Assembly: GCA_024648695.1 (NCBI GenBank)
Contig: JACAVV010000020.1
Coordinates: forward strand, 1-64,000
Reading direction: 5' to 3'
Length of the DNA stretch: 64,000 nt
DNA from: Nitrospina sp.
GTDB taxonomy: Bacteria > Nitrospinota > Nitrospinia > Nitrospinales > JACRGP01
The notes beneath the pieces are model-generated. The model was not told the origin of the DNA and did not search any database. It saw only the letters and a program-made list of their open reading frames with translations. This document shows positions 6,484 through 42,108 of the stretch, piece by piece; position 1 is the first letter of the stretch, and the number at the start of each line of letters is the position of its first letter. The translations under genes were made by a program, and so were the position numbers.

Positions 6484-6711
6484 GTTCCATCAGCTCAAAA
6501 TGTCGCTATTGGTTTCTTTTTAGAATTATATTTGTTTTGTATGCGTAGAGGAAGTGATTGAATGGCAGAATGCGGTTGGCGCATCAACGGTTGAACTGAA
6601 GAATCAACCGTGGCCAATTCGGGAAGGGTTGACTTCAAATGTGTTCCAGTTAATGGATTTCAGAAAAATTCGAATAGGCCCAATATTTCGGCTTTAAAAG
6701 ATAAAAGGATA

Positions 6712-6740
6712 TTGACATCTTAATTTAGAATTCGTATATT
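6712..6740 (+). promoter_or_regulatory. sigma-70-type promoter of nirK
   Basis: TTGACA at 6712-6717 and TATATT at 6735-6740 are separated by exactly 17 bases, close to the housekeeping consensus. The predicted start is near 6747, giving a ~136-base leader before nirK. The rest of 6484-6882 shows no gene. Confidence 0.65.
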
Positions 6741-6745
6741 ACGTA

Positions 6746-6768
6746 AAAAAGGATAAGAATATCTTTTT
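6746..6768. promoter_or_regulatory. inverted repeat at the nirK transcription start
   Basis: AAAAAGGATA (6746-6755) and TATCTTTTT (6760-6768) are inverted with a 4-base spacer and one bulged G. A related AAAAGGATA also occurs at 6703-6711, just upstream of the -35 box. The placement over the predicted start suits a repressor operator, but the protein is unknown. Confidence 0.35.
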
Positions 6769-6882
6769 ATCTCTAAATGAATTTTGCGCTTTAAATTTTT
6801 ATGCATATTTAAATGGTGAGCCTTCAACTCGCGAGGTTTCTCAAACAACTACCAATAATCACACTATGAAAGGAAAGTTATA

Positions 6883-7869
6883 ATGAGACCAGGAACTATC
6901 GGAAAAATTCAACTTTTAACAGCGATTACTTTTTTATTTTACGCAGGGCAAAGCTTTGCGGATGTCAAAGCGGTCCTTACTTCGGCTCCAAAGGTTCCTC
7001 CTGCTATTGGAAAACGCGCGGCCCAAACCGTTCATGTGAGTTTCGAGGCCAAAGAGTTCAAGGGACCCATCAATGACGATGTCCAGTATGAGTTCTGGAG
7101 CTTTAATGGCACGGTACCGGGTCCGATGGCCCGTGTTCGGGTCGGCGACGATGTCCAATTCCATCTTTCCAACCACAAGAACAACATTCAGCCTCATAAT
7201 ATTGACATTCACGCGGTGAATGGTCCTGGTGGCGGAGCGGCTGTGAACACGGTGAGCCCTGGGGAAACGAAGACCTTCACCTGGAAAGCGCTCAACCCTG
7301 GATTGTATATCTACCACTGCGCCGCAGGGTCTATAGTGGACCACATCGCCAACGGCATGTACGGTTTGATTCTGGTGGAACCTGAAGGGGGACTGTCTCA
7401 AGTCGACCGCGAGTTTTATGTATTCGAAAGCGAGTTTTTTGCTTCCGATCCTGAAGACGGAGTGGCCGCTTTTGACATCACCAAAGGTCTGGAAGAGCAT
7501 CCAACCTACGTGGTTTTTAATGGAAGGGATGGAGCGTTATTAGGCAAAAATGCATTAAAGGCCAAAGCGGGAGAAACGGTCCGCATCTTTTTTGGCAATA
7601 TTGGCCCCAACGGTATTTCTTCTTTCCATGTGATCGGCGAAATTTTCGACAACGTTTATCACGAAGGGGCTATCAATGGATTGATGAATCATAATGTCCA
7701 GACCACCCTGGTTCCTTCTGCCGGGGCTACCATCGTGGAATTCAAGGTGGATAACCCCGGAACCTACGTTCTGGTGGATCACAGTATATTCCGCGTGGCC
7801 AAAGGTTCAATCGGCCATCTGGTGGTGGAGGGTAAAAAAGATTCTTCCATCTTCAGGGAAGGAAAATAA
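6883..7869 (+). CDS. nirK: copper-containing nitrite reductase, NirK type
   Basis: A 328-residue periplasmic two-cupredoxin protein with a signal peptide (about residues 1-26, ending SFA). All expected ligands are present: type-1 copper His105, Cys146, His154 and Met159 ('YHCAAGSIVDHIANGM'); type-2 copper His110, His145 and His300 ('VDHSIF'); the catalytic pair Asp108 ('PHNIDIHA') and His249 ('SSFHVIGE'). The length and two-domain order match trimeric NirK, which reduces nitrite to nitric oxide. A good Shine-Dalgarno (AAAGGAAAG) precedes the ATG. It has its own strong promoter. In a nitrite oxidiser it could work in NO signalling, detoxification or electron balance; that is inference. A laccase-like multicopper oxidase is less likely because of the NirK-specific Asp/His pair. 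Confidence 0.9.
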   Translation: MRPGTIGKIQLLTAITFLFYAGQSFADVKAVLTSAPKVPPAIGKRAAQTVHVSFEAKEFKGPINDDVQYEFWSFNGTVPGPMARVRVGDDVQFHLSNHKNNIQPHNIDIHAVNGPGGGAAVNTVSPGETKTFTWKALNPGLYIYHCAAGSIVDHIANGMYGLILVEPEGGLSQVDREFYVFESEFFASDPEDGVAAFDITKGLEEHPTYVVFNGRDGALLGKNALKAKAGETVRIFFGNIGPNGISSFHVIGEIFDNVYHEGAINGLMNHNVQTTLVPSAGATIVEFKVDNPGTYVLVDHSIFRVAKGSIGHLVVEGKKDSSIFREGK

Positions 7870-7914
7870 TCTGGATATTTCATAAGGCTATCCAGAAACA
7901 GGAAATAGGTATTG

Positions 7915-8030
7915 TGTCCTCCCCGCGAACCTCCCCGCGTTGGGGAAGAGGGTAGTGTACATCCCTTCTCCCCAGGCGGGGAAATGCAAGAATGCAGGGA
8001 GACCTGTGAGGTCGAAGGTCCAACCCCGAG
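7915..8030. repeat. degenerate intergenic repeat (family copy)
   Basis: This stretch contains CTCCCCGCGTTGGGGAAGAGGGTA and, in the opposite sense, TCCCTTCTCCCCAGGCGGGG followed by GAGGTCGAAGGTCC. The same motifs occur in the interior of the TIR-bounded repeats, so it looks like two abutting partial copies in opposite orientation downstream of nirK. It can fold into stable hairpins. Confidence 0.45.
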
Positions 8031-8120
8031 TCCTCTGTAAAATTTTTGGCTCGTATTATCTAACATGGGTTATGGGCAAGAGAATTAAAATTTAAAAATT
8101 CTAATTGGCCTAATACTTAT

Positions 8121-8235
8121 TCGGGGACTTTATTGGGGACTCTATCAAGTTGGCCTTCGACCTCATTATTCCCCCTCACCCTGGTCTTCTCCCACCCGGG
8201 TAGAGGGGGTACTCTTAAACCAGTTACCGGGATTA
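8121..8235. repeat. degenerate intergenic repeat (family copy)
   Basis: It runs GGGGACTC..TTGGCCTTCGACCTCATT..CCCCCTCACCCTGG..CCCACCCGGGTAGAGGGGGTA..CCGG, parallel to the 225-312 interior of copy A (GGACTC..GGCCTTTGGCCTCATT..CCCCCTTACC..GGGAAGAGGGTGA..CCGG). It has no coding potential and lies between nirK and the carbonic anhydrase gene. Confidence 0.5.
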
Positions 8236-8294
8236 CCTGGGCCTGGCCATAATTGTGATAATTCCTGATACTTAATAGACCTGGATTCATTGTG

Positions 8295-9092
8295 ATGAAA
8301 TCAAACAATAAGATTCGATTAACATTTGCCTTGGTCCTGCTTGTCTCACTTTCTGTTTTGGTCGGATTCGCCCTGCACGGAATAGCCAATGAAAATGATG
8401 GCCATGAACCGCAATGGGGCTATGAAGGTGGTACGGGTCCTTTGCATTGGGGAGGCATGGAACAGGACCACGACAAGCACCTGCTGTGCCGAGACGGGGT
8501 TCGCCAGTCTCCCATTGACATTGGCAAGGTCCTCGGTTTTGAATCGCTTCGCTTGCAAAGCCACTATTTTGAAACTCCGGTGCAAATCATTCGAAATTCA
8601 CATACAGTCCTTTTGAAATATGAACAGGGAAGTTATATTGAATGGGGGGACGAAGTCTTCGAACTCATTCAGTTTCACTTTCATCATCCAAGCGAGCACC
8701 GGGTTTCGGGCCGGTCTTATCCCATGGAGATTCATTTTGTCCATAAAACGGAAAGCCAAGAGTATGTGATCATAGGCGTTCTGGTCAAGTTTGGGAGTTA
8801 TAACCCGCATGTTCAAAAGGTATGGGATCTGATACCTGACGAAATCGACAAGGAAACGATTTATGAAAACACGCGATTGAGAGCTAACCATTTTCTGCCT
8901 TCATCGAAGAAATATTTTCATTATGCCGGTTCTCTCACCACGCCTCCGTGCACTGAAAATGTCACCTGGCTGGTCCTGGAAGAACCCATTGAAATTTCTG
9001 AAAAGCAATTGGCGCAATTCCAGAAATACATCGATCATAATGCACGTCCCATTCAAAAACCCCATCACCGAATCGTTGTGAAGCTGAAATAA
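8295..9092 (+). CDS. alpha-type carbonic anhydrase, exported
   Basis: A 265-residue protein with an N-terminal signal or anchor (residues ~8-30, ending near GIANE). The alpha-CA motifs are 'QSPIDI' (71-76), zinc ligands His128 and His130 in 'QFHFHHPSEH', His147 in 'MEIHFVHK', and the substrate loop 'SLTTPPCTENVTW' with Thr215. Cys65 and Cys219 are placed for the usual disulphide. It interconverts CO2 and bicarbonate in the periplasm, which suits supply of carbon to the DabAB system further along. An in-frame GTG at 8292 is the only alternative start; the ATG at 8295 is preferred. nirK and the PNPOx gene are on the same strand but well separated. Confidence 0.93.
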   Translation: MKSNNKIRLTFALVLLVSLSVLVGFALHGIANENDGHEPQWGYEGGTGPLHWGGMEQDHDKHLLCRDGVRQSPIDIGKVLGFESLRLQSHYFETPVQIIRNSHTVLLKYEQGSYIEWGDEVFELIQFHFHHPSEHRVSGRSYPMEIHFVHKTESQEYVIIGVLVKFGSYNPHVQKVWDLIPDEIDKETIYENTRLRANHFLPSSKKYFHYAGSLTTPPCTENVTWLVLEEPIEISEKQLAQFQKYIDHNARPIQKPHHRIVVKLK

Positions 9093-9196
9093 TTTCGATG
9101 GGCTGTGGGTTATCGCGGTATTATAAAAAAAGACTTTTTTGAAAAAGTTACTGAAACATAAACAAAGCTCAGGCAAAATACCTATTTGAGGTTTTT

Positions 9197-9802
9197 ATGA
9201 GTAGCCCCGGCTCCAAAGGCGAGCATAGCTTACAAAAACAATACAAGTCACAAAGACGCGCTTTGGATTTTTATAAGAACCAGGTGCTGGATTATATGAA
9301 CCCCGCAATGCAGGAGTTTGTTTCCAACCGGACCATGGTGTTTGTTGCGACCTCGGATTCGCAGGGGGAATGCGATTGTTCATTTCGGGCGGGAGCTCCG
9401 GGTTTTATAAAGGTATTGAGTCAGGACTGCCTGGCCTATCCCGAGTATAGAGGCAACGGCGTATTAGCCAGTCTGGGAAATATTTTAGAAAACCCGCATA
9501 TCGGATTGTTCTTCGCCGATTTTTTTGAAAGCACCGTCGGTCTTCATGTCAATGGAGAAGCAAGGATACTGGAGAATAAAGAAATCCTGGCGGATAAAGA
9601 AAGTTTCCAGGAGCTAAAACAGGCAATCAATGTGAAAGGCGGGCAAAAACCGGAACGTTGGGTTCTGGTAAAAGTGGAAGAAGCCTATATCCACTGCTCG
9701 AAACACATTCCCCTCTTAAAAACCCTGGATAAAAATATCCACTGGGGTACGGACAATGAAAAGCAGAAAAAAGGAGACTTTTTTAAATCTAAAGGTTCCT
9801 GA
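9197..9802 (+). CDS. pyridoxamine 5'-phosphate oxidase-fold (FMN-binding split barrel) protein
   Basis: A 201-residue soluble protein of the PNPOx-like split-barrel family. The core strands are 'RTMVFVATSDSQGECDCSFRAG', then a loop 'YPEYRGNGVLASLGNILENPHIGLFFADFF', and 'LHVNGEARIL'; 'GNG' plus 'NP' is the usual FMN/phosphate-contacting region of this group. The substrate is unknown; relatives reduce or oxidise small molecules with FMN, F420 or haem. The ATG at 9197 follows GAGG. It lies ~100 bases after the carbonic anhydrase gene. Confidence 0.75.
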   Translation: MSSPGSKGEHSLQKQYKSQRRALDFYKNQVLDYMNPAMQEFVSNRTMVFVATSDSQGECDCSFRAGAPGFIKVLSQDCLAYPEYRGNGVLASLGNILENPHIGLFFADFFESTVGLHVNGEARILENKEILADKESFQELKQAINVKGGQKPERWVLVKVEEAYIHCSKHIPLLKTLDKNIHWGTDNEKQKKGDFFKSKGS

Positions 9803-9921
9803 CTCTCAGGGGATTCAGGCGATTTATAATTTATTCCAGTTATGGGAATCAACATTTATCCCAAAAGGTTTTTTTACAAAACCGGGGGAAAACACCCCGT
9901 CTCCATCCCGAAAATCAGTTT

Positions 9922-11712
9922 CTATTGAAACTCTTTCATCCAGGGCACTTTCGATTTAACCACTGCACTGGGTCCTAAAATTTGAGGTTCCTGCCGGTAG
10001 CCGAGATCCTCCAGAAGTGATCCGGCTTCATCCACAAGTTTTTCAAAGCTGATATTTTTTTTCTCCCGCAAAAGTTTCGCAAAGGAATAAGTGAACGCTC
10101 CATAGCTGGTAACGCCGTGCCGGTATTCATAGGACAATTCTTCTTCCTGACAGGCTTCTATGATTAAGGGTAGGTAAGGACCGAAAATCAAATTATCGGT
10201 TAATTCTTTCAACCAGTCCTTTTCGGTTTGGTTCCTCACTCGGGAACCTCGTCCTAGTTTTTGGGTGGCCCCGTTTTTCCCGAAATACCGCGCATTTATT
10301 TTTTTATCTTTTGAAAAGCCCGGATTGCGAGGGCGAAAAGTGCGTTCAATCCACATTTGATTATTTATATCCCATTTCAATTCGCGGTGCCGTATATCGT
10401 CCGGTGGCGTCAATCCGCGAGCACGCTTGCCCCCTTCCCGGTGCATACCGCCGGAATGGCAACAATCGAGGATCATGGCAAATTTGGTGTCATAGGGAAG
10501 TTGGCTGTAGAGGGAGAAGATTTTATCGTCGGTCACCGCGGTTTCCTGCGACCATTCGAAATCGTAAGGAACCAGGGTTTCCTGAAGTTGGTCCGGTTCA
10601 CCATTTTCCCCATACTCCGGAATGGTTGCCCCATGTCCGCTGTAATAAAATACGCGAATGTCATCAGGGCCCGGATCGTCCAGCAACCACTCCAGGCGTT
10701 CCATGATGCCCTGACCTGTAGCCCGGTCATCCAGACACATGCGAATGCTTTCGGGCGGAAACCCGCATTCCTGCAGGACCGAGCTCATGAGAAAGCAATC
10801 ATTCAAACAGCCTTCCAGGCGATCCGATTCCGTGGGATAATCGTTGATTCCCACCAATAAAGCACGATGCCGGTAGCTGTCTGAAACAACACTTCGCGCC
10901 CTGGCTTTGGTTTTAGGTTTTAAGCCTAATGACCTCACTCTGGAAGCGGGATTAAGCGTTTCCTCCGCGATGGGTCGCCAAATTTCGGTAATGCTCGCGG
11001 AATGTGACAGATAACTTTCCGCACAAGGGTCGCCTGTAACTTCAGGGTCATTGAACGTTGTGGCGATCTCGCGATAATTTGGCATGTTCCAAACTCTGAA
11101 TGAGTCGGTAAAACCACTGTCTTTACAATTGAACAGATGGTACCAGTATTTAACATCCAGCGGTTCGATTCTGCCCCTGGTCAGGTTGGAAATCACAAAC
11201 ATATTTCCGATTTGGGAACCCAGGGCCACAAAATTTACTTTTTTGAGAGTCCGCTTGATTTCAGGTTTGCTGGCATCCGGGTGGGAGAAGGCGTTGTAAG
11301 CAATCAGAGAGCCTAAACTGTGGGCCAACACGATATCCGGTTGATATTTTTTGACAGAGTCAAGAATTCGTTTTCGGGTCTTTTTCTTGAGAGTTTCATT
11401 TTCCAGCCAGGCTACAAGGTAGCCCGCGGTCCAATGAATTGTATCTGAAACATCGCCAGGACTTCCCCTGCGTTTTCGAAACGGTTGCGCTGTGCCGCTT
11501 CCCATGAGTTTAGTAACCGCTCCCCGGATTTCCAATGGATCCAATTCGACCTTGGCGAAAAGGTCATCGTAATCTACAAAATCAAAATCCAGTTCGATAC
11601 CTTCAATGTTTGGAAAAGAATTGCGTACGGAATCTTCCCAGGAGCTTTGCCAGGTTTTATTCCGATGATCCCCCAATCCATGCACGCATTGAATTTTTAC
11701 AAGCTTTGTCAT
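9922..11712 (-). CDS. alpha/beta-hydrolase - caspase-like protease fusion
   Basis: A 596-residue protein without signal peptide, in two parts. Residues 1-255 look like an alpha/beta-hydrolase: an opening strand and oxyanion region 'CVHGLGDH', the nucleophile elbow 'LAHSLGSLIAYNA' with Ser132, and a late 'YLSHSASI' giving the likely catalytic His237. After a basic linker (256-280) residues 281-596 form a caspase/metacaspase p20-like domain: 'RALLVGINDYP' strand, 'CLNDC' loop, 'VFYYSGHGAT' with catalytic His360, and 'AMILDCCHSGG' with catalytic Cys418 next to the HSG triad. The end contains 'LIIEACQEEE', 'GAFTYSF' and 'PQILGP', normal for bacterial caspase homologues. Both active sites appear intact. 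It stands alone, with no partner gene close by. The substrates are unknown; a toxin-like or cell-death role is only a possibility. Confidence 0.85.
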   Translation of the reverse strand: MTKLVKIQCVHGLGDHRNKTWQSSWEDSVRNSFPNIEGIELDFDFVDYDDLFAKVELDPLEIRGAVTKLMGSGTAQPFRKRRGSPGDVSDTIHWTAGYLVAWLENETLKKKTRKRILDSVKKYQPDIVLAHSLGSLIAYNAFSHPDASKPEIKRTLKKVNFVALGSQIGNMFVISNLTRGRIEPLDVKYWYHLFNCKDSGFTDSFRVWNMPNYREIATTFNDPEVTGDPCAESYLSHSASITEIWRPIAEETLNPASRVRSLGLKPKTKARARSVVSDSYRHRALLVGINDYPTESDRLEGCLNDCFLMSSVLQECGFPPESIRMCLDDRATGQGIMERLEWLLDDPGPDDIRVFYYSGHGATIPEYGENGEPDQLQETLVPYDFEWSQETAVTDDKIFSLYSQLPYDTKFAMILDCCHSGGMHREGGKRARGLTPPDDIRHRELKWDINNQMWIERTFRPRNPGFSKDKKINARYFGKNGATQKLGRGSRVRNQTEKDWLKELTDNLIFGPYLPLIIEACQEEELSYEYRHGVTSYGAFTYSFAKLLREKKNISFEKLVDEAGSLLEDLGYRQEPQILGPSAVVKSKVPWMKEFQ

Positions 11713-11916
11713 TTCAATCTCCCTTTGATTCCGTTTTTGGACATGAGCATTAAAGCATGTTTTTTAAAGAAATCCATTTTATAGCAAAAGCCCGATCCAA
11801 ATGTTTAAAATTTGGCGCAGGTCCTTTGATCATGCCCTAATTTTAGATTGAGTTACTTACTCAACAAACCGGGAACGAAGCTGGTTCAGGATTACTAGGG
11901 TTGGGAGTGGATCAGG

Positions 11917-14900
11917 TTATTGACCCGCTTTGGACAGGTCTGAGGGGAGGGTCAGGATTTCTTGCGGCGTTTGGAGGAGACCCTGAAAGGTGCCTACCAA
12001 TTTTCTTTCCAGGGATTTTAAGGGGATGGCGGAGATCTGAGGATTGCTGAAATTTCCTCTTAATGTATGGTAACTTTTCACCAGGCTTTCTTCGTCGCCT
12101 CCAGTGAGGATGGGTCCTACTACCGGAATTTTAACCAGGATCTTATCAAGACCCGGCATGGGCGCAACGCCTACCACGGCGTCCATTTGGCTTCTACCCA
12201 GATCAAACCAGCCCACCATTGTGGCGCGCCTTGATCCTGTGGCATATAACAGGTTATTGGTTTTGGCGATTCCCTGCCGGATGGTGAAGTCGCCTTGCAG
12301 ACGTTCGAAAGGCGACACCTGATCGGCGTCTGCGCCTACCTTCTTCATCACGGGTCCTTTCGTTTCCCCTGCTAGACGGCCAAGCGCCTGCTTTAACCGA
12401 AACGAGTCCAAAGTGCCCGAATGAAAATCAAAGGACACTTTACCCACCAGGGATTTTCGAATTTCTTCCTTGTTGGCCCCGCCTCCTCTTAAAACGATTT
12501 CAAGATAATTCCCTTTACCGGTAAGGGCTCCCTTGAACGCGGGTCCCAAAGGACTGATCAGGTTGTTCAATCCGATGCGTTTGGTCAAGATATAGCTTTC
12601 AAACTCCAGCTTTTTCGGGTTGGCAAAGGAGACCGATCCCTGGCCCCGAATGCCCTGGTCGCGAACGGGGTAGAGGTTGAATTTTTCGATATCCAGTCGT
12701 TTGTCCTTGAAGGTGAGGCTTCCCGACACGTTGTTAAGGTGCCAGAACTTATAATTCATTTGTTCCAGGTTGAGTTCCACCTTTGACGTGCCCCGCGACA
12801 ACAAAGCCGATTGTGCAACCATTCGCTGGGGCTCTGATTTGGCCTGCATCGGAAAAAAGTCCTGCACATCCAACGTTCGACCCAGAATATCCAGATTCAG
12901 ATAAGGTTGGGGGCCTTCGCGAAATTCACCACTGACATTCACATTGGAATTGGCTGATACCACTTTCAGGTTTTTGAATTTGTAATGTTTTTTGCCGAAT
13001 TCCAGATTGCCGCTCAGGTTGACCGGCCGATTCATGCCAGCGCGCTGGTACCGGAATCGCTTCAAGTCCGCCAGAGCAGAGTATTGAATGGACCCCGCCT
13101 GATTACCATGACCTTGAGCCTTCAACCTTAGATCTAGGTTGCCTGACATATTCTTTTTAGGTTTTTTAAGGTAAGGATTGAGGGTTTCCATTCTCATGTC
13201 CTTACTGGTGAGCATTAGCGAATAAGCCGGATCATCGAAACTTTTCATTTGCGCCTTGCCGATGAAGCGGTTGCCGCCCAGCACATACTCGAATTCGTTG
13301 ACGGTAATCGGTTGGCCCTTTTTCTTGTGGCCCCGGAAGAACAACTGGTTACTTTCATGCAAAGGTTTGTTCAGGAATCCTGGAATCTGATAGGACGCAT
13401 TTTTAAATTCCACCTGTTTTTCAAAGTGATGCGAACCCGGCATGCCTTTCAGGTTCATATCGACATTCATAAAACCCTTCACGTCCCAGGACTTCACCCA
13501 CCCCAGGTTTTGAATGTCCTGCGCCGCAAAGCTGTCCGAGTGGGCTTTGATCGTATAATTCACAGGTCCTTTGACCGGTTTCAATACCGCCCCCTCCCAT
13601 TGCACGGGAGAGGTTCCGTACAAGCCTTTCATGTTTCTCATGCCGAGGTTACCCGGCTTATAATTGATTGCTCCGAACAAGCCGGTCATCGTTTGATAAC
13701 CTTTAGGTAAAGACACGGTAACGTTTTTCAAGCTGAGGTCCGTTTGTTTTTTAGAACTATTCTCATCAAGAGGATTGCCCTCGGCCTTATACTTCATCCA
13801 CACCTCGCCGCCTGTGAACGACGACTGCCGGATGAAACTTTTTAAATCCTTGTCCATCGGAAACAGTGAGACCAGTGCGGAAGAATAATCACCCGGCAAG
13901 AGTCTGAAATCTCCAGAGTAATGCAAATACGGTTTGCCTTTGACCACGCTAAAATCGCCGCGCAATTTGGTGAAAGAACTTTCTTTAAAATTGCCAGTCA
14001 TGTCGCCGAACTTAAGATACCAGGGCCGCTGAAGGTAATTTCCTTTCTTGTCTTTTTTCGCAGGCGGCATGTCGAAGGTTCCGGACCCCTTCAAATTAAC
14101 CACACGCTTGACCAGCCCGTCTTGCTCAAAGGATCCTTTATCGATATCCAGCGAACCCGAATAGCGAATTTCTTTCGGTCGCTTCAAAGGACCTTCCACA
14201 TTAAGTATGAAATACCCGTCGCCAGCAACATTCTTGTATCGGTCCAGCAGATTCCCCACCATGTCGTTCTTGAGAATCACCGGCAAAGCCTGATGGAACG
14301 GCCCCACTTCCACAGGCGTCTCAACTTTCCAGTCAAGGGTCGGGTTAGGTGATGTTAAATTGAAAATATCACCCTTCAGCCGTTTTACCGGCAAGCCGGC
14401 ATAAGTCGATTCATACAGGTCGACCACCGCATTGCCGGAATTCAGTTTAAATGAGCCGGTGGCCTTTTTGAAAGGCGGCAAGGGTTTTGACCAGTTCACC
14501 TTGCGCAGGGTGATCTCGCCCTGGAGCCGACTCAGATTGTTATTACTGGTGATATTCTTGAGTTGATTCAATGTCCCGCCAAAGTGCAGGGAGTTGATTT
14601 CCACGGTTCCCCCGACAAAAGCTTTTTGCAACATTCGGTGCGATTTGCGAGGAAAGATTTTCAAAGGCGGATAACGGTCGCTGATACCCGGTTCAAACTG
14701 GTTGCTTTGCAAGGTAACATCCACCCGCGGATTGCCCCCGGCGAATCCCGCCAATTGACCGTTGGCCTGAAAAACGAAATCACCTACACGATAAGATATA
14801 TTTTTGAAGTGCACTCGCTTGTTGTTAGCAAATAAATCGAATTGAATCGTTCCACGCCCCGGAATCTGTGCAACCGCGCCTCGCGGCCGAGGGTTCACTT

Positions 14901-15783
14901 GGGCATAGCGCAGTTTGCCTTTGGACTCGATTCCTTTTTGCACCTGGCCCGAAATTTCTGTGGTCAGGGTCAGGCGGCTGTCCTGCGGGATGGTGGAAAG
15001 GATAGGAAACTTTTTGAAATTGGGTAAATAACTTTTGTACTTCGCGAAATCCAGATTTTCGACATTCATCTCACCATCTATCGACATCAACGACCAACTC
15101 GCCATTTTCCAGGGATTGCGCACCTTGCCCGCAAAGCGGAACGATCCCTTTTCAGGACTCTGCGGCACCTCGCCACTGACCTTGATATCCAAATGGGGTG
15201 ATAGGAGTCCACGTTCAATAGATAATCCCAGGTTGTATAACTGGAACGTTTCCGGCTGGCCTTCGGGTCGGTTGAATTGATCCTGAAAATGCACCTGGCT
15301 TTCGCTTATCTTTAAGGTATCGAACACCTGAATCTGGGGCATGCGGAACCAGCTTTCGGGGTCCGTATTCGACTTTAGGAGCAGTTCTTTCAGATCATAA
15401 ATATTGTAATTGCCCTCGGCATCCCGACTCAGTTTCAGTACTGAACCCTGGACGATCACTTTCTGAATTTCCAGTTGCTGGTTGAGTAAAGGGATGGGAT
15501 TGATCACCACCCAAACATCGGCCGCTGTGAAATCCGGTTGACCACCTCCGAGACTGCCAATGGAAACATTTTTCAGGTTAACGCTCAATCCTTCAGAAAA
15601 ACTGATTGCGGCATCACCGATTTCCACTTTGCGTTTGGTTTTGGATTCCAGCCGCTGGACGACTAATGCTTTGATATTTTCCAGGTCGCTCAATTCTTTA
15701 TAAACGAGGTAACTAAGTAAAGAACCGAGAACTAAAAAGAGAACAAAGGATAGGACTAAAAATTTTTTAAAGGAGGGTCGCAT
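11917..15783 (-). CDS. large AsmA-like (AsmA/YhdP-type) envelope protein
   Basis: A 1288-residue protein anchored by one N-terminal membrane segment (about residues 9-30) and otherwise periplasmic. It starts with the AsmA pattern, 'VVQRLESKTKRKVEIGDAAIS', and continues with long beta-rich repeats (many 'G.L.F.....' strands). The C-terminal AsmA-like region includes 'LTGKGNYLEIVLRGGG', 'GKVSFDFHSGTLDSF', 'LQGDFTIRQGIAKTNNLLY' and 'PVVGPILTGG'. Members of this group bridge the inner and outer membranes and assist phospholipid traffic or outer-membrane assembly. The ATG at 15783 (MRPSFKK) is preferred over a GTG at 15801 because the charged residues then sit just before the anchor. The frame is intact. 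It is a single gene, with ~200 bases to the caspase fusion. Confidence 0.85.
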   Translation of the reverse strand: MRPSFKKFLVLSFVLFLVLGSLLSYLVYKELSDLENIKALVVQRLESKTKRKVEIGDAAISFSEGLSVNLKNVSIGSLGGGQPDFTAADVWVVINPIPLLNQQLEIQKVIVQGSVLKLSRDAEGNYNIYDLKELLLKSNTDPESWFRMPQIQVFDTLKISESQVHFQDQFNRPEGQPETFQLYNLGLSIERGLLSPHLDIKVSGEVPQSPEKGSFRFAGKVRNPWKMASWSLMSIDGEMNVENLDFAKYKSYLPNFKKFPILSTIPQDSRLTLTTEISGQVQKGIESKGKLRYAQVNPRPRGAVAQIPGRGTIQFDLFANNKRVHFKNISYRVGDFVFQANGQLAGFAGGNPRVDVTLQSNQFEPGISDRYPPLKIFPRKSHRMLQKAFVGGTVEINSLHFGGTLNQLKNITSNNNLSRLQGEITLRKVNWSKPLPPFKKATGSFKLNSGNAVVDLYESTYAGLPVKRLKGDIFNLTSPNPTLDWKVETPVEVGPFHQALPVILKNDMVGNLLDRYKNVAGDGYFILNVEGPLKRPKEIRYSGSLDIDKGSFEQDGLVKRVVNLKGSGTFDMPPAKKDKKGNYLQRPWYLKFGDMTGNFKESSFTKLRGDFSVVKGKPYLHYSGDFRLLPGDYSSALVSLFPMDKDLKSFIRQSSFTGGEVWMKYKAEGNPLDENSSKKQTDLSLKNVTVSLPKGYQTMTGLFGAINYKPGNLGMRNMKGLYGTSPVQWEGAVLKPVKGPVNYTIKAHSDSFAAQDIQNLGWVKSWDVKGFMNVDMNLKGMPGSHHFEKQVEFKNASYQIPGFLNKPLHESNQLFFRGHKKKGQPITVNEFEYVLGGNRFIGKAQMKSFDDPAYSLMLTSKDMRMETLNPYLKKPKKNMSGNLDLRLKAQGHGNQAGSIQYSALADLKRFRYQRAGMNRPVNLSGNLEFGKKHYKFKNLKVVSANSNVNVSGEFREGPQPYLNLDILGRTLDVQDFFPMQAKSEPQRMVAQSALLSRGTSKVELNLEQMNYKFWHLNNVSGSLTFKDKRLDIEKFNLYPVRDQGIRGQGSVSFANPKKLEFESYILTKRIGLNNLISPLGPAFKGALTGKGNYLEIVLRGGGANKEEIRKSLVGKVSFDFHSGTLDSFRLKQALGRLAGETKGPVMKKVGADADQVSPFERLQGDFTIRQGIAKTNNLLYATGSRRATMVGWFDLGRSQMDAVVGVAPMPGLDKILVKIPVVGPILTGGDEESLVKSYHTLRGNFSNPQISAIPLKSLERKLVGTFQGLLQTPQEILTLPSDLSKAGQ

Positions 15784-16122
15784 TAATGGGTAAAGTTGCA
15801 CCGAAAACCGGTTACAATAATCCTTTCCTCCCGGATAGGGAAGTTATTAATAGGCGTATTGGGCTGATACTCCATCTAATCAATTTGACGGGGGAAAAAT
15901 AGCCTTACTATATATATCACGAACAGGCCTTGAATTCAATGTTAACTCAAAAAAATCAACTGTTTTCGTCAACTGAAAACAGGGTTCGGAAATTGATTTT
16001 CAAGGACTTTTACGGAAGTGGGCCAGGCATTTTTTTTCGATAAGAAAAAGACTGAACAAACACACGATAGAAAAATCACTCTCTGCCCTCATCAGGGCGG
16101 AACCCTATCAAAGGAAATAATT

Positions 16123-16875
16123 TTGAAATCTGATCGATCCGATCATATCATCCACGGCATTCATGCTTTGAATGAAGCGTTGAAATCGTCTCGCACCTGT
16201 CGGCAAATTCTGGTGGAAGAAGGAAAGTCCAATAAACGGATTGAATCTCTCTTGAACGAAGCCCACGACCGCAATATTGCAGTAGAATTTTTACCGAAAC
16301 CTGCTTTCTCTCAAAGATTCGGAAGCCAACATCAGGGAATCGCCGGAATTTTTTCTGCCAAAGCGGTGATGGACCTGGCGCAATTGATTGACCACGCTCT
16401 GGCTCAATCAACTACCCCCACACTGGTGCTTCTGGACGGGATTCAGGATCCGCAGAACCTGGGCGCCATTATCCGGTCTGCTGAAACACTGGGGATTCAC
16501 GGCCTCATTGTGCCACAAAACCGGTCAGCGCGAGTGAATTCCACGGTGGCCAAATGCGCCGCCGGGGCTTTGGAGTTACTGCCTGTAACTACGGTCAGCA
16601 ATCTGGGAAATGCGTTGAGAGCGCTTAAAAAAGCGGGGTTCTGGTGCGTCGGACTGGACATGGCGGGGGAAAGCTCGTGTTTTGACTACCGCTTCGACGC
16701 GCCAACGGCTCTGGTCGCCGGAGGTGAACATAAAGGACTGAGACCCATCATCAAAAAAGATTGCGATACGCTCATTCGCATTCCCATGCAGGGCCAAACG
16801 CAATCTCTGAACGTCTCTGCCAGTTGCGCGATAGTGTTTTATGAAATTTTACGACAGAACAAAAAAGCCGAATAA
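16123..16875 (+). CDS. rlmB: 23S rRNA (guanosine-2'-O-)-methyltransferase RlmB-like (SpoU family)
   Basis: A SPOUT-fold methyltransferase with all three SpoU motifs: 'DGIQDPQNLGAIIRSAE', 'NSTVAKCAAGALELLPV' and, at the end, 'VAGGEHKGLRP' plus 'QSLNVSASCAIVFYEILRQ'. The N-terminal substrate-binding domain begins 'IIHGIHALNEAL'. The frame is open from a GTG at 16018, but that gives 35 extra residues of non-conserved sequence. A TTG at 16123 preceded by AAGGAA at 16111 gives 250 residues, the normal length, so I use it. It methylates a ribose in 23S rRNA using SAM. A TrmH-like tRNA specificity cannot be excluded. It ends in a terminator shared with the convergent rpsU. Confidence 0.88.
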   Translation: MKSDRSDHIIHGIHALNEALKSSRTCRQILVEEGKSNKRIESLLNEAHDRNIAVEFLPKPAFSQRFGSQHQGIAGIFSAKAVMDLAQLIDHALAQSTTPTLVLLDGIQDPQNLGAIIRSAETLGIHGLIVPQNRSARVNSTVAKCAAGALELLPVTTVSNLGNALRALKKAGFWCVGLDMAGESSCFDYRFDAPTALVAGGEHKGLRPIIKKDCDTLIRIPMQGQTQSLNVSASCAIVFYEILRQNKKAE

Positions 16876-16890
16876 CCCCGCATTTCAGCA

Positions 16891-16937
16891 GGCAAAAAAA
16901 AACGGCCGGAACTTTTAGGTTCCGACCGTTCAAAATT
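16891..16937. terminator. bidirectional intrinsic terminator (rlmB / rpsU)
   Basis: The arms AACGGCCGGAAC (16901-16912) and GTTCCGACCGTT (16919-16930) pair with one mismatch around a 6-base loop. The run of A at 16894-16900 becomes a U-tract for rpsU transcripts on the minus strand; the rlmB side has a weaker T-rich tail. Confidence 0.8.
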
Positions 16938-16953
16938 CTTTTGTCTAAAAAGC

Positions 16954-17151
16954 TTAAGCCATCATTCTTCGGCTACGATTCGCGGCCCGCTTCTTCTTTT
17001 TCGCTTCTTTTTGCTTGCGCTTCTTTTTAACAGATGGTTTTTCGTAAAACCGTCTTCGCTTCAATTCTTTAAGCAAACCTTCTTTAGTCATTTGCCGCTT
17101 CAAAACTTTCAAAGCTTTTTCAACCTGATTCTGGTAAACCTGAACTTCCAA
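16954..17151 (-). CDS. rpsU: 30S ribosomal protein S21
   Basis: A very basic protein with the S21 pattern: 'VEKALKVLKRQMTKEGLLKELKRRRFYEKPSVKKKRK' followed by a lysine/arginine-rich tail. It is a component of the 30S platform that helps initiation. The frame opens with an ATG at 17169, but S21 proteins begin a few residues later. A TTG at 17151 preceded by a GGGGGGG run (17158-17164 on the plus strand as C) and a T spacer makes a 65-residue protein of usual length. This start is inferred. A strong terminator follows the gene. Confidence 0.92.
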   Translation of the reverse strand: MEVQVYQNQVEKALKVLKRQMTKEGLLKELKRRRFYEKPSVKKKRKQKEAKKKKRAANRSRRMMA

Positions 17152-35502: not shown

Positions 35503-37197
35503 ATGACCATTCCATTTCTCATTATTCTGATTCCCCTTTTCGCTTCAATTCTCATTTGGGTTTTTGGAAAGCCACTGGATTCTCGTGTTGCAAAGCTCGG
35601 GATCACTGCGATATCGATTTCGTGTCTGTTTTCGGCCTTGACGCTCTACCATGTGAGCACTGATGGTCCCATTCATATCATGTGGTGGCCGGTAGATACG
35701 GACAATACCGCCATCTTCAAATTTGGCATATTGGTGGATCGGCTCACTGCTGTCATGATGATGTTGATCACAAGTGTCAGCCTGGTAATCCATGTGTATT
35801 CCGCCCGCTATCTGGAAGGTGATGCGGGCTACGCCCGATTTTTCGCGCTGTTAAGTTTTATTACCTTTGTGATTCTTGCCCTGGTCTCCAGTCCCAACCT
35901 GTTCATGCTGTTTATATTCTGGCAGTTATTGAGTTGGGCTCTCTACCTTCTTCTGGTGTTCAATTTTCCGCATCGTGACGCTTGCAGGAATGCGTTTAAA
36001 ACATTTATCGTTCACCGAGTCGGGGATGTTTCCTTTCTCCTTGGAATCTTCCTGACTTATAAATATTTCGGTACGCTGGAGTTTACGGAACTTTTCAAAG
36101 TGGCTTCGCAACAACCGCAAATGGTTTCGCTGTTGCCGGGCAACGGGTTGGAGATCAGTGCCGTTTCCTTGATCAGCGTTTTAATTTTTGTGGGGGCGAT
36201 GGCCAAATCCTCCCAATTCCCCTTACACGTGTGGTTGCCTGACACGATGGATTCCCCCACTCCCGTGTCGGCTCTCATGCACGCGGGGATCGTCAATGCC
36301 GGCGGATTTTTAATGAATCGATTGGCCCCGTTTTACGCCCTTTCACCTTCGACACTTCATATAGCTTTTGTGATTGGCGTCATTACGGTAGTGCTTGGCG
36401 CTTCTATCATGCTTGTGCAAAACGATATCAAGAAGACCCTGGGGTTTTCCACAATGGGCCAAATGGGCTACATGATTATGGAATGTGGGTTAGGAGGCTT
36501 TGCGCTGGCGATTTTTCATTTGATTGCTCACGGTCTTTTTAAGGCATCCCTGTTTTTGAGCGCAGGACAAGGTATCCATGATTCCCGTGAAGAACCCAAG
36601 TTTCCCGAATCCTCAGGACACGAAAAAGTGATTTTTCCACCGCAATTAACCTGGATCACGGGTCTCGTCCTCACGCTCATCATGCCGTTGATTATTCTAA
36701 TGGTGGCCCACGGTGTGCTGGACGTTCCACTGGAAGATGCTCATGGCGCGGTTATTTTTCTGTTTTTCGCCTGGGTCACGGCTTCTCAGGCTATGTTTAG
36801 TCTGTTTCGGCTTCATGCGGTGGCCTCCTGGAAAGTGGCGGGTGCCATGATTGCCGCTTTGTTTTTAATCGGATTTATCTATCTGTGGGCGGCAGAAGAG
36901 TTCACCCATTTTCTGTATCCCGAACCGGGGTTGGCGGATGAGTTTTTCATGGCCGCGGCGCTCAATCCACAGGTTTTTGATATGCTGGTTCTCCTGGCGA
37001 CCCTGTTCATTATTTTTGGCTGGGTGGTGCTTTACACCAACGCCAAGGGCCAGAGAATCTTTACCAGGGACTGGCTTCTGCCCATTCGAAATAAACTGTA
37101 CATCCTTTTGATCAATCGATGTTACGTAGATATTATTTACCTTCGTTGGAGCGAATGCATGATGCGATGGGCCCAAAAAGTAGCCCTTCGTTTTTGA
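35503..37197 (+). CDS. dabB: DabB: NuoL/MrpA-type proton-conducting subunit of inorganic-carbon transporter
   Basis: A 564-residue membrane protein with ~14 segments, of the NuoL / antiporter family. Proton-antiporter motifs are 'KSSQFPLHVWLPDTMDSPTPVSALMHAGIVNAGGFLMNR' (conserved Lys, His and Pro) and 'QNDIKKTLGFSTMGQMGYM' followed by 'AIFHLIAHGLFKASLFLSAG'. It is not a complex I gene, because its neighbours are dabA and a PII-like gene rather than other nuo genes. DabB pairs with DabA and is thought to let cation flow drive CO2-to-bicarbonate conversion. It is first in a four-gene operon. Confidence 0.9.
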   Translation: MTIPFLIILIPLFASILIWVFGKPLDSRVAKLGITAISISCLFSALTLYHVSTDGPIHIMWWPVDTDNTAIFKFGILVDRLTAVMMMLITSVSLVIHVYSARYLEGDAGYARFFALLSFITFVILALVSSPNLFMLFIFWQLLSWALYLLLVFNFPHRDACRNAFKTFIVHRVGDVSFLLGIFLTYKYFGTLEFTELFKVASQQPQMVSLLPGNGLEISAVSLISVLIFVGAMAKSSQFPLHVWLPDTMDSPTPVSALMHAGIVNAGGFLMNRLAPFYALSPSTLHIAFVIGVITVVLGASIMLVQNDIKKTLGFSTMGQMGYMIMECGLGGFALAIFHLIAHGLFKASLFLSAGQGIHDSREEPKFPESSGHEKVIFPPQLTWITGLVLTLIMPLIILMVAHGVLDVPLEDAHGAVIFLFFAWVTASQAMFSLFRLHAVASWKVAGAMIAALFLIGFIYLWAAEEFTHFLYPEPGLADEFFMAAALNPQVFDMLVLLATLFIIFGWVVLYTNAKGQRIFTRDWLLPIRNKLYILLINRCYVDIIYLRWSECMMRWAQKVALRF

Positions 37198-37216
37198 AAC
37201 TCGACGGATAAGCCTG

Positions 37217-38446
37217 ATGAACTTTGAAAGTATTCTATTTTTAATTTTTGCTCTGGGACCTCTTCTTCTTGGAATGGTTTGGAGAATCCAAGCTGGCTCC
37301 TTTTCGATGCTTCGTTATACCGGCATGATGGTGCTGGGTGCTATTGGCATGGGTTTGCTTGTGGTTAAATCTGCAGATCCCACCATCGTGATTTTGGAAG
37401 AAGCCGTTGTCCTTGCAGGCTTTTGTGTCTTGCTGAGCCAGAACGAAACGGAAGATAGCACCTTTATTTGTTCCACCGCTATGATTGTTCTGGGATTGGC
37501 ATTGGGATTTTTAACGCTGACGGGGATAATGAGCAAGGTGTTTCTGATTGGTCTTCTGGTATTTGCAGGAAAATCCATCTATCGAGACGATCCAGGCGCA
37601 GTTCGAACGAATCTGGCCCTTGGCCAAATCGCACTGACCATTCTTTGCTCATTAGTTTCCGGGTTCAGTGGAACCACCCTGCAGGCGATGATGGGTATTT
37701 TCATAACGGTGATTTTCTTGCCGCTGATTCCCCTCCACCAGCCTTTTTTATGTATCATTAAAAATGCCAAAGGAAGCCTTACCAGTTTTTGGATCATTGT
37801 GTGGTTGGCTGTGGGTATTGATGAATTGCATCTGATACACGACTCGATTCCGGCTGGAATGTTGTTCATCTTGCGCCTGCTGGCTTTCATAAGCGCTGGT
37901 TACGCTTCGTTAGTGTGTCTCGGACAACAAAGATGGAATTTGTTCATAGGCTCTGCTGTCATTGCGCATGTTGCATTGATTTGGGGTCTGCTGGAACCTT
38001 TTCCGGATTTCACCCAATGGGGAATGTCTTTTGGTGTGACCCTGGCCCTGGTGATGGGCGGACTGTGTCTCGCGTTTTCGTTCATTCGACAACGTTATGG
38101 CTGGCAAATCATTGGAAAACTTCCCGGCCTTGCTTCACCGATGCCCCGCTTTGGTACAGTCATGATTTTTCTTGTGAGTTTCGCTATGGTCCTTCCGGTA
38201 TTTCCCGCCATACCGGGACTGAATTCAATGCCGAGCGTTTTTAGTAAAGATATTCCGATTTTAATGACCTTGTTTATTATCCTGGTAGTCTGGTTGGCGG
38301 GCGGATGGTATTTTTCAAATATGCTTCATCAGACAGCCTATGGAACGGCCCGTTCTGATGTCACTTATACGGACCTGCGCCCGGCAGAATGTGTCGCCGT
38401 TACCGCCCTGTTGCTGGGGGCCACCTATAGTGGACTGGTCTACTAG
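37217..38446 (+). CDS. divergent NuoM/MrpD-like membrane subunit in the dab operon
   Basis: A 409-residue integral membrane protein with ~12 segments, placed 19 bases after dabB and 44 bases before dabA. It looks like a strongly diverged antiporter-type subunit: 'LPLIPLHQPF' recalls 'LPLHTWLPD', 'SAVIAHVALIWGLL' recalls the 'S.AH.G' helix, and 'GLASPMPRFGTVMIFLVSFAMVLPVFPAIPGL' recalls the NuoM 'GL....PR......F..A..GLPG..GF' segment. The buried Lys of the proton path is not obvious. It may be a second membrane subunit of the transporter. The relation is by eye and needs a profile search. Confidence 0.6.
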   Translation: MNFESILFLIFALGPLLLGMVWRIQAGSFSMLRYTGMMVLGAIGMGLLVVKSADPTIVILEEAVVLAGFCVLLSQNETEDSTFICSTAMIVLGLALGFLTLTGIMSKVFLIGLLVFAGKSIYRDDPGAVRTNLALGQIALTILCSLVSGFSGTTLQAMMGIFITVIFLPLIPLHQPFLCIIKNAKGSLTSFWIIVWLAVGIDELHLIHDSIPAGMLFILRLLAFISAGYASLVCLGQQRWNLFIGSAVIAHVALIWGLLEPFPDFTQWGMSFGVTLALVMGGLCLAFSFIRQRYGWQIIGKLPGLASPMPRFGTVMIFLVSFAMVLPVFPAIPGLNSMPSVFSKDIPILMTLFIILVVWLAGGWYFSNMLHQTAYGTARSDVTYTDLRPAECVAVTALLLGATYSGLVY

Positions 38447-38490
38447 ACACCGATTGTTAAACTCTTTCAGGAGGCCAACGAGTTAAAGCC

Positions 38491-41400
38491 ATGCCTGTGC
38501 TTGAGGAAAAAGAAATTTCAGCGTCCAATGAGTCGCAACGCATAGAATTACGGTCCTTGGTGAATCTTGCGGGTGAACCGATCTCGCATTTCTGGCCGAT
38601 GAAAACGTTTATTCATCACAACCCGCTTCATGGTCTGGAGCATTTGCCGTTTGAAAAAGCCATAAACGAAGCGAACCGGTTTTTTGGAGGCCGTGGTTAC
38701 CTTCCCAATGCAGAGTACCGGAATTATTTCAGGCAGGGCCGGATTACCGAAGAGGCCGTCGACGAAGCATTAAAAGAAATCGCACAGGATTCTGCGGTCA
38801 CTATCGGCGGTCGTAAACTCCCTCATCAGGAAATCCTGAAAACCATCCTCATTCATGGCACCGAAACCGTCGCGCCCGATGTGAGTTCGGCGCTTTTGCA
38901 ACCTTCTCTCAATAAAGCTGAAGTCCGGGATCTTCGCGAAAAAATTAAAGATTTATTAAATATAAGAACACCAAAGGAATTTCTGGTCGCCCATGCCAAC
39001 CGGGAGAAAGATGACCTGGCGACTCAATACACTCTGGGAAAATGGTGCGATCAATCTCTTGGGACTCGAGTGCAGGATCAAATCAACGGTCAAATCATCA
39101 AATGGTGTGCCGGCTTTCTCGATGAGGGACACGCTCCCTGGGCAATGCCTTTACGTAAGAAAACGTTTTATGGCGGTTGGAAAAATCTGGTGCTGGAGGA
39201 TGCCGCCGGTTCCATTTTGGGAATCAAGGATTGGAAAGCAAAAGTCCGGAAATTGCCGGACCGGCCTGAAGACGCGATTCTGGAAAGTCTGGACATACTG
39301 CACCTTCCCAAGAATTTGTGGATTGACTATTTCTCTTTGCATTTTGCCGATATGTCCGGATGGACCGGATTCATCAAATGGCGGTCGGAGCAAATGGACT
39401 ATGAGTGGCAAAACGCTTTTCCCATGGACCTTATCAAATACATGGCTGTCCGGCTTTTTTATGAACGTGAGTTTGTGGCGATTGCCTGCCGCGATAACCT
39501 CGGTATTCCCGGCACCTATGTGGCCATACAAGATTTCCTGAAAGATCATCCCGTTGGGTATGGTCTCTACAAGGAATTTCATACACTTGGATTGCCGGAT
39601 GAAGTTGCTGACTCAATAGATCCATCTTTGTTCCTTACCAATCCTCTGAATATCGATGCCCTCGATCAATGCGATTCAACAACCGTTTCCAATTGGAAAC
39701 AGATTCGCCTGCAACAAGAGGCCGATTGTAAAACCTTGACGGTTTTACATCTGTTGAAATCGTTGAATATTTCATTAAAGGATGCTCAGAACAGTTCGGA
39801 TGAAACACTGGAGACCTTGCTTGACTGGATAGGGCAGTTTCCGGAGTCACAGCACGGGCCCCTGTGGCTCAAGACTTTCGAATCTAGTTTTATCAGGAAT
39901 TTCGTGACGCGGTTTTCAACAAACATAGAAAAGCTGGCAAAAAACGATGAATCTGAAGAAGAGCCGCAAGAATCGCGGCCTCTGTCGCAATCCCTGTTTT
40001 GCATCGATGTGCGTTCGGAAAGCTTCCGAAGGCATCTCGAAGAAATTGGTGGCAACGAAACCTTTGGCTTCGCCGGGTTTTTTGGCATTCCCTTATGCTA
40101 CCAGGGCTTTACCAGCGAACAGCAAACCGATCAGTGTCCAGTCCTTTTAAAACCCAAACACGTGGTGAAAGAAATTCCACGCGCCTATCAGGCCAGGGCG
40201 GCTGAGAAATTTCTGGAAGGTCATCAACTGGCCAAAACGGGCCATACTCTGCTTCACGACTTGAAAGAAAACGTGATCACTCCGTATATCATGGTCGAAG
40301 CCATAGGCTGGTTCTTCGGGTTCCGCCTGTTTGGTCAGACCCTGCGACCCAAATGGTATGACAAAACCGTTTCCTGGATTAAGAAGAGTTTGGCCATTCC
40401 CATTAAAACCACTCTGACCGTGGATAAAATCGACCGGGAAGAGGCGCATCAAATGGTGGCTACCAAACACCGTGAAATCATTTACCGCCTGTTCATTGAA
40501 AAATACGGCCAGCATGGGGCCACGGTGCCTCATGACCAGGTGGAACGATTGCGGAAACTGGCGCTGGAAAAGGTTTCTTCCGATAGCCAGGAGGATGAGG
40601 AACTGTATCGACTTCTACAGTGGAATGAGTCCGACTTGCAAGCGTTTATTGTTGCGCTCAGAAAGGAATTCAATATCACCGAACGGGATGTGGACCGCCG
40701 GATCACTCAAGTGACGCAAACCGGGTTTACCGTATCCGAGCAGGCCCATTTTGTGGAAACGGCGCTCAGGATTTTAGGGTTCACAAAAACATTTGCCCGA
40801 CTGGTCCTCTTTTGTGCGCATGGAAGTACCTCAGACAACAATCCCTATGAATCTGCTCTTGATTGCGGCGCTTGTGGCGGGAATCATGGAATCTCCAATG
40901 CCCGTGCACTAGCCGTCATGGCCAACAAACCGGAGGTTCGCCAAATGCTGGTATGCCGCGGACTCCAGATTCCGCCGGATACGCATTTTCTTCCCGGCCA
41001 GCATGACACCACAACGGATGAAGTGGAACTTTACGATCTTGAAGATGTCCCTGCCACGCATCGCAAGGATTTAAACCGCTTGCAACGGGACCTTCTTGAG
41101 GCCGGTGAAAAAAACAGCCGCGAACGGCTCGCCCGGTTTCCCGATGAATCCCCCTTGAAGAAAGATGATTTAGCCCTGCCGCGCGCCAAAGAACGAAGCA
41201 TGGACTGGTCGCAGGTCCGACCGGAATGGGGCTTGTCCAAGCATACCGCCTTCATCGTTGGGCGTCGCCTTTTGACCCAGGGTATCAACCTGGAGGGCCG
41301 GACCTTTTTGCATTCTTATGATTACGCCCAGGATCCCACAGGGAAATATCTGGAAATAATCATGACCGCGCCAATGATCGTGGGTAACTGGATCAACATG

Positions 41401-41748
41401 GAACATTATTTTTCTACCGTGGATCCCGAGGTTTATGGAAGCGGCAGTAAGGTGTATCACAATGTGGCCAGCCGTGTAGGCGTCATGTATGGAACCGAGA
41501 GCGACCTGTGTGTGGGGCTTCCCGTACAAACCGTTCTGGATGGCGACAAGCCTTACCATGAACCCATGCGATTGTTCACCATCATTGAGGCTCCGCTGGA
41601 TAGAATTGCAAATATCGTCGCGGCCCATGATATACTTCAGAAATTAACAGGAAACCAATGGATAAATATTGTCGGTTTAAATCCCGAAGATATGGAATTT
41701 TATCTCTTTCAAGCACCGAAAGACTGGCAACTCATAAAACAAAACTAA
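38491..41748 (+). CDS. dabA: DabA (DUF2309): carbonic-anhydrase-like subunit of inorganic-carbon transporter
   Basis: A 1085-residue soluble, membrane-associated protein of the DUF2309/DabA family. The zinc site resembles beta-carbonic anhydrase and is complete: Cys504 and Asp506 in 'FCIDVRSESFRRHLE', His777 in 'LFCAHGSTSDNNPYESALDCGACGG' and Cys792. The spacing of 15 between His and Cys fits known DabA. 'SHFWPMKTFIHHNPLHGLE' at the start and 'IVGNWINMEHYFSTVDPEVYGSGSKVYHNVASRVGVM' near the end are family signatures. With DabB it hydrates CO2 in the cytosol in one direction, accumulating bicarbonate for carbon fixation. It is longer than the ~830-residue proteobacterial type. GAGG precedes the ATG. 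Confidence 0.95.
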   Translation: MPVLEEKEISASNESQRIELRSLVNLAGEPISHFWPMKTFIHHNPLHGLEHLPFEKAINEANRFFGGRGYLPNAEYRNYFRQGRITEEAVDEALKEIAQDSAVTIGGRKLPHQEILKTILIHGTETVAPDVSSALLQPSLNKAEVRDLREKIKDLLNIRTPKEFLVAHANREKDDLATQYTLGKWCDQSLGTRVQDQINGQIIKWCAGFLDEGHAPWAMPLRKKTFYGGWKNLVLEDAAGSILGIKDWKAKVRKLPDRPEDAILESLDILHLPKNLWIDYFSLHFADMSGWTGFIKWRSEQMDYEWQNAFPMDLIKYMAVRLFYEREFVAIACRDNLGIPGTYVAIQDFLKDHPVGYGLYKEFHTLGLPDEVADSIDPSLFLTNPLNIDALDQCDSTTVSNWKQIRLQQEADCKTLTVLHLLKSLNISLKDAQNSSDETLETLLDWIGQFPESQHGPLWLKTFESSFIRNFVTRFSTNIEKLAKNDESEEEPQESRPLSQSLFCIDVRSESFRRHLEEIGGNETFGFAGFFGIPLCYQGFTSEQQTDQCPVLLKPKHVVKEIPRAYQARAAEKFLEGHQLAKTGHTLLHDLKENVITPYIMVEAIGWFFGFRLFGQTLRPKWYDKTVSWIKKSLAIPIKTTLTVDKIDREEAHQMVATKHREIIYRLFIEKYGQHGATVPHDQVERLRKLALEKVSSDSQEDEELYRLLQWNESDLQAFIVALRKEFNITERDVDRRITQVTQTGFTVSEQAHFVETALRILGFTKTFARLVLFCAHGSTSDNNPYESALDCGACGGNHGISNARALAVMANKPEVRQMLVCRGLQIPPDTHFLPGQHDTTTDEVELYDLEDVPATHRKDLNRLQRDLLEAGEKNSRERLARFPDESPLKKDDLALPRAKERSMDWSQVRPEWGLSKHTAFIVGRRLLTQGINLEGRTFLHSYDYAQDPTGKYLEIIMTAPMIVGNWINMEHYFSTVDPEVYGSGSKVYHNVASRVGVMYGTESDLCVGLPVQTVLDGDKPYHEPMRLFTIIEAPLDRIANIVAAHDILQKLTGNQWINIVGLNPEDMEFYLFQAPKDWQLIKQN

Positions 41749-41772
41749 CTTATTGAGAAGGATTGAGACCAA

Positions 41773-42108
41773 ATGAGCAGTGTGAAACTTCACCCCATGA
41801 AAGAAGTTAAAATCATAATCGAAGGAGAGCACCTTCGTTTTGTGACGGACGTTCTGGACCGGATCAAGGCCAGCGGTTACACAATCTTTAGCAGTATTTC
41901 CGGAAAAGGTCATGGCGGTTTCCATGAAGGGCACATGATGTTCAATGACACCAGTAGCCTGCAAATGGTCCTGACCGTTGTTCCCGAAGAAAAACTCGAC
42001 CCGATTCTTTCCGGACTCAAACCCTTTCTGGAACGCCACTCCGGCAGTCTTTTTGTTCTTGATGCCTGCGTGCTTCGGCCCGATCATTTCGATCCCGCTG
42101 ATTCCTGA
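41773..42108 (+). CDS. PII-like protein of the dab operon
   Basis: A 111-residue protein with the PII/CutA-like ferredoxin fold: 'KEVKIIIEGEHLRFVTDVLDRIKASGYTIFSSISGKGHGG', an exposed T-loop-like segment 'HEGHMMFNDTS', then 'LQMVLTVVPEEKLDPILSGLKPFLERHSGSLFVLDACVLRP'. It lacks the Tyr-uridylylation motif of GlnB. PII-like proteins linked to inorganic-carbon transporters sense adenine nucleotides or bicarbonate and modulate the transporter; that role is inferred from position, 24 bases after dabA. A terminator-like hairpin follows. Confidence 0.85.
   Translation: MSSVKLHPMKEVKIIIEGEHLRFVTDVLDRIKASGYTIFSSISGKGHGGFHEGHMMFNDTSSLQMVLTVVPEEKLDPILSGLKPFLERHSGSLFVLDACVLRPDHFDPADS

Follow-up and report, generated by a model that had tools for sequence, protein, structure and literature searches.

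A DAB1-type operon with a divergent antiporter-like third subunit in a Nitrospina genome without detected RuBisCO or carboxysome shell genes

What could a third membrane protein and a PII-like protein contribute to a transporter that, in the DAB2 form of Halothiobacillus neapolitanus, has two subunits only? The question is raised by four co-directional genes in the window, the 64,000-nt stretch of Nitrospina sp. DNA analysed here (contig JACAVV010000020.1, positions 1 to 64,000), which an earlier note had described as a four-gene DabAB operon at 35503-42108. That layout is borne out: the open reading frames are as described, all are on the + strand and, from dabB to the PII-like gene, they are separated by only 19, 44 and 24 nt. 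The first, dabB (35503-37197, 564 aa; PF00361 at 1e-59, and PF00662), encodes a NuoL/MrpA-like membrane subunit of proton-conducting type, and the third, dabA (38491-41748, 1085 aa), a long DAB1-type beta-carbonic-anhydrase-like subunit (PF10070 at 1e-261, 871 bits) that matches the DabA2 structure 9rd0. Between them is the gene for the third membrane subunit (37217-38446, 409 aa), which hhalign profile comparison and residue mapping point to as a degenerate NuoM/MrpD-type antiporter paralogue, and 3′ of dabA is a gene for a 111-aa PII-like protein of CPII type (41773-42108; PF00543 at 2.7e-21, 76 bits; matches to 5d4n and 5d4l).

Judged by their residues, DabB and DabA look active. Eight DabB residues, K235, S256, H260, K310, S316, H339, H343 and K347, alanine substitution of which impairs H. 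neapolitanus DAB2, are kept both across the Nitrospinota set and by Nitrobacter (K235 is replaced by R in one row). Position 151 is Leu, and DabB2 has Ile there, replacing the NuoL glutamate. The residues of the DabA zinc site, Cys504, Asp506, His777 and Cys792, are at exactly the positions that had been claimed for them and, together with R508, are invariant in 74 DabA sequences. E603, within a hydrophobic hairpin, is the putative membrane-finger glutamate, and its spacing is like that of DabA2 Glu444: it is 99 residues past the first zinc Cys (93 in DabA2) and about 81 ahead of the zinc His once an insert is removed (80 in DabA2). PF10070 with a complete zinc site, and an adjacent DabB with NuoL-type path residues, place the pair among DAC/DAB transporters. 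H. neapolitanus DAB2 (cryo-EM, PDB 9rd0) is alike in its DabA zinc site and DabB path residues, but its DabA is about 200 residues shorter than that of the window.

The reading of the locus as a two-subunit transporter extended in an unusual way is not supported: DAB1 with three subunits and a PII gene has been published before and, as described below, occurs in Nitrobacter too. The H. neapolitanus DAB1 order is NuoL-like protein, transmembrane protein, ~1,046-aa DUF2309 protein and PII (PMC4633670), so that, in a comparison made from the papers, hneap_0907-0909 and the PII gene have the same four-gene order as here. DAB1 has been described as a three-subunit DAC whose third protein is small (PMC13144422); the H. 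neapolitanus interstitial protein was assigned to PF00361, and dabAB1 with the interstitial gene complements carbonic-anhydrase-free E. coli (PMC7714395). That locus is between carboxysome-associated genes and has a small third protein, whereas here the third protein is 409 aa and there are no RuBisCO or shell genes. The main text of the COGNAT paper (PMC5700660) describes ybcC operons that have PII 3′-terminally, alongside ones in which there are extra membrane subunits. Its ‘clade B’ of YbcC/COG3002 operons has a nuoL homologue upstream of ybcC and a 3′ PII, as here, though in that text the middle subunit is not singled out.

Plasmid 1 of Nitrobacter hamburgensis X14 (NC_007959.1) carries these four genes in identical order, with a DabA of 1,037 aa and a CPII that is 48% identical to the window CPII. 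This operon adjoins cbbLS and csoS2, whereas the window genome has no carboxysome, and its middle protein is 253 aa as against 409 aa. Neither BLASTP nor hhalign gave a significant match between the two middle proteins; what links them is their place in the operon and a resemblance to antiporter subunits that each shows separately and to a different degree (hhalign scores of 64-94% for the longer and 32% for the shorter). [On the plasmid the dabB-middle-dabA-CPII operon is duplicated in tandem upstream of the carboxysome operon (L073 9548-22353), and the two middle proteins bear an identical protein accession.]

DabA has an insert of ~90 residues, at about 649-741, soon after E603. Of the two runs of this insert Nitrobacter DabA has 100% and 91%; 22 short DabAs and the second DabA of the same genome largely lack it. 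In a quick tree the long Nitrospinota DabAs join those of Nitrobacter through a long branch and with support of 89 only. Great length in DabA is not confined to this lineage, as both the H. neapolitanus protein and that of Nitrobacter, with the same insert, are of similar size. The earlier claim of an extra-long DabA thus stands with respect to DabA2 but not with respect to proteobacterial DabA1, than which it is not markedly longer. (Among 399 genomes of the phylum of genome G221, presumed to be Pseudomonadota because its RecA and E. coli RecA share 72% identity, no DAB1-type DabA was found, only other DabA clades.) Two features, the extra transmembrane gene that separates dabB from dabA and a long DabA with the insert of carboxysome-linked DabA1, place the operon in the DAB1 class of DAC complexes. 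The arrangement is mostly known already and, given the published and Nitrobacter parallels, the operon represents a known system, varied in this lineage. New points are the size of the third subunit, 409 aa rather than 253 aa, and the RuBisCO- and shell-free host with an ATP-citrate-lyase domain; also new is that the second DabA of the same genome is inside an Mrp-type operon.

Earlier cloning of DAB1 included its third gene, which was left without a name or an explanation. The protein of the window has about 13 hydrophobic segments, close to the 12 or so first proposed, and no Pfam domain above cut-off; phmmer and hmmsearch against PDB sequences gave no match. Comparison of profiles is more informative. 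A 17-row profile of the middle protein scored 96.5% (E 9.8e-10, 335 columns) by hhalign against a profile of 91 antiporter subunits, and the 17 proteins taken singly scored 64-94%. Twenty-five other polytopic proteins served as controls: two, both adjoining dabA and one of them carrying PF00361, scored 97.6-98.6%, the two identical Nitrobacter middle proteins gave a weak signal (31.9%, E 5e-4) in the C-terminal part, and the remainder were at or below 16.5%. The signal is seen only against the diverse 91-member profile, hhalign against a shallow DabB alignment giving nothing. Run over 291 genomes, the 17-row profile retrieved, apart from members of the family itself, just two distant proteins, both NuoM-like by sequence, and PF00361 weakly matches two of the 17 family members (best E 0.0017). 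From the profile score and the low-scoring controls, an antiporter-like subunit is the ancestor of the middle protein, which is a divergent antiporter subunit of NuoM/MrpD type, as had been suspected from its faint motifs.

Of 77 Nitrospinota genomes, 20 have the gene (11 of the 31 of good quality), with protein identity of ~50% across the 20 genomes that have the operon; with such recurrence it is not a chance open reading frame. At every locus where both neighbours are assembled it is between dabB and the long dabA, and, contig ends excepted, it was not seen without a long dabA among the 77 genomes. No BLAST relative was detectable outside the order. Absence of the gene from most orthologous operons, or its membership of an unrelated family, would have told against its being an antiporter-like subunit of the system, and neither was found.

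What has changed in this protein is the proton path. At the positions of DabB H260, K310, H339, H343 and K347, all 17 middle proteins have residues that are non-protonatable or unconserved. In the mapping, which rests on a remote alignment, the counterparts of DabB S256, H260, K310 and K311 are T/S/A, I/V/L, N/S/R and L/M/P, and those of S316, H339, H343 and K347 are A, F, L/V/I and M/L/I. The K235 position falls in a gap that adjoins a conserved ‘FLPxxPxH’ stretch without lysine, and few conserved charged residues remain in the family. Profile comparison and residue mapping thus bear out the suggestion of faint NuoM/MrpD motifs that lack the path lysine, and proton conduction has likely been lost. 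An AlphaFold model made from three sequences has a pLDDT of 39.9, and neither a DAB1 structure nor biochemistry of the third subunit was found in the PDB or the literature searched.

The loss of these residues bears directly on whether the middle subunit might still be an ion channel, by way of other residues, with more than one ion moved per CO2 and steeper bicarbonate gradients possible. Its antiporter ancestry would suit such a function, some DabA operons have two to four antiporter-like genes that are intact, and the COGNAT authors propose that ion number follows subunit number (PMC5700660). However, with the mapped path positions non-protonatable or unconserved in 17 of 17 relatives, the K235 position in a gap and few conserved charged residues left, we regard conduction by this subunit as unlikely. 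The whole polytopic protein, with BLAST relatives undetectable outside the order, could instead be a separate carrier, e.g. of bicarbonate, CO2 or a cation, with no tie to the complex beyond a common operon, and in the related genome G065 a SulP transporter gene does follow dabA. A free-standing carrier would not be expected to be so faithful in position, between dabB and dabA at all assessable loci and absent elsewhere except at contig ends, nor to be included in DAB1 constructs that work, and its ancestry is among subunits of larger complexes; this is the least probable of the alternatives.

A different doubt concerns what the complex as a whole does. It could be sodium-coupled, in the manner of MpsAB, for which Na+/HCO3- symport has been proposed (PMC13144422), or its role could be in homeostasis of pH or Na+ and not in the accumulation of CO2, and the hosts are probably a marine group. 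In DAB2, whose path residues are the same, Na+ is neither needed nor moved, and the long DabA groups with the carboxysome-linked DAB1, not with the Mrp-linked paralogue. A role of this kind, too, is improbable.

The reading that we prefer, and consider probable, is that the four genes specify a DAB1-type DIC-accumulating complex. DabA, with its zinc site of beta-carbonic-anhydrase type, would hydrate CO2 in the cytoplasm, and NuoL-like DabB would provide for proton entry. DabB and the DabA membrane finger with E603 would together couple the proton-motive force to hydration in one direction, with accumulation of bicarbonate as the consequence. The middle protein would most likely be beside DabB in the membrane as a structural or docking subunit, possibly in contact with the DAB1-specific insert that follows the finger in DabA. 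CPII most likely tunes the complex according to bicarbonate and adenylates. That an antiporter relative without a proton path may have become a scaffold or regulatory subunit is a hypothesis suggested by the phylum-wide set of 17 sequences. A more specific form of it, that the paralogue, its conduction lost, is a regulatory docking subunit through which CPII switches the vectorial carbonic anhydrase in hosts free of RuBisCO and carboxysomes, is put forward as a speculation with the balance against it.

The PII-like protein called in the earlier note is genuine and belongs to a specific family, CPII. Its best structural matches, 5d4n and 5d4l, extend over residues 1-106 with E about 4e-32, and by sequence family it is CPII. 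5D4N is the CPII of Thiomonas intermedia, a protein of the same family known as carboxysome-associated, whereas here there is no carboxysome. Wheatley's work of 2016, cited in PMC6458275, reportedly had CPII binding bicarbonate and adenine nucleotides. Since the present setting parts CPII and DAB1 from the carboxysome, it makes the PII-like protein likelier to be a regulator of the transporter than of the carboxysome. The gene is 3′ of dabA in 14 of the 16 loci with enough downstream sequence and is missing from genomes G065 and G033, so it is not obligatory. A single-sequence AlphaFold model of CPII has a pLDDT of 53. [In G065, where CPII is absent, a plain SulP-family gene is downstream of dabA (L068 161-1759); at another locus, L112 12615-14600, a SulP transporter with a fused P-II domain is downstream of a DabA operon.]

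Where the bicarbonate goes is suggested by the rest of the genome. The host, a member of Nitrospinota, is related to marine nitrite oxidizers, and its closest named kin are metagenome-derived genomes of Nitrospinia/Nitrospinaceae. A Pfam search of it found neither RuBisCO large subunit (PF00016) nor carboxysome shell protein (PF00936), and the citrate-binding domain of ATP-citrate lyase (PF16114) is present. The linkage of DAB1 to carboxysome or RuBisCO genes known elsewhere does not hold here; such linkage belongs to the setting and does not define the transporter. A reductive TCA cycle has been described for Nitrospina gracilis (PMC3578206), with which the single domain PF16114 and the lack of RuBisCO agree, and DIC-transport genes have been noted in organisms with this cycle (PMC10880623). 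With RuBisCO and carboxysome undetected, the simplest reading is that bicarbonate probably supplies carboxylases of the reductive TCA cycle, and the inorganic carbon pool the CO2 that the cycle needs.

DabA has other settings. The second DabA of the same genome (1006 aa; L072, G000:C5:15000-34000, 6341-17035, − strand) heads an Mrp/Mnh-type gene run, in which MrpE, F and G were recognized by eye and MbhD/E, MnhB and MrpC-like domains by Pfam, with three antiporter-like subunits; a DabA-Mrp complex is possible. Relatives of this DabA are present in many Nitrospinota genomes, and this may also be the cluster reported from N. gracilis as an ‘eight subunit Mnh antiporter’ (PMC3578206). In the presumed Pseudomonadota, loci L143, L144, L147, L148, L155 and L156 have dabA with four antiporter-like genes, one upstream and three downstream (in L147 partly in overlapping frames). 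In this DabA clade the finger-glutamate position is non-acidic in L133 and L143, the two rows inspected closely, so that the periplasmic half-channel may differ there. In genome G008 (L055) a DAB1-type operon is followed, side by side, by a short DabA and a further antiporter-like gene.
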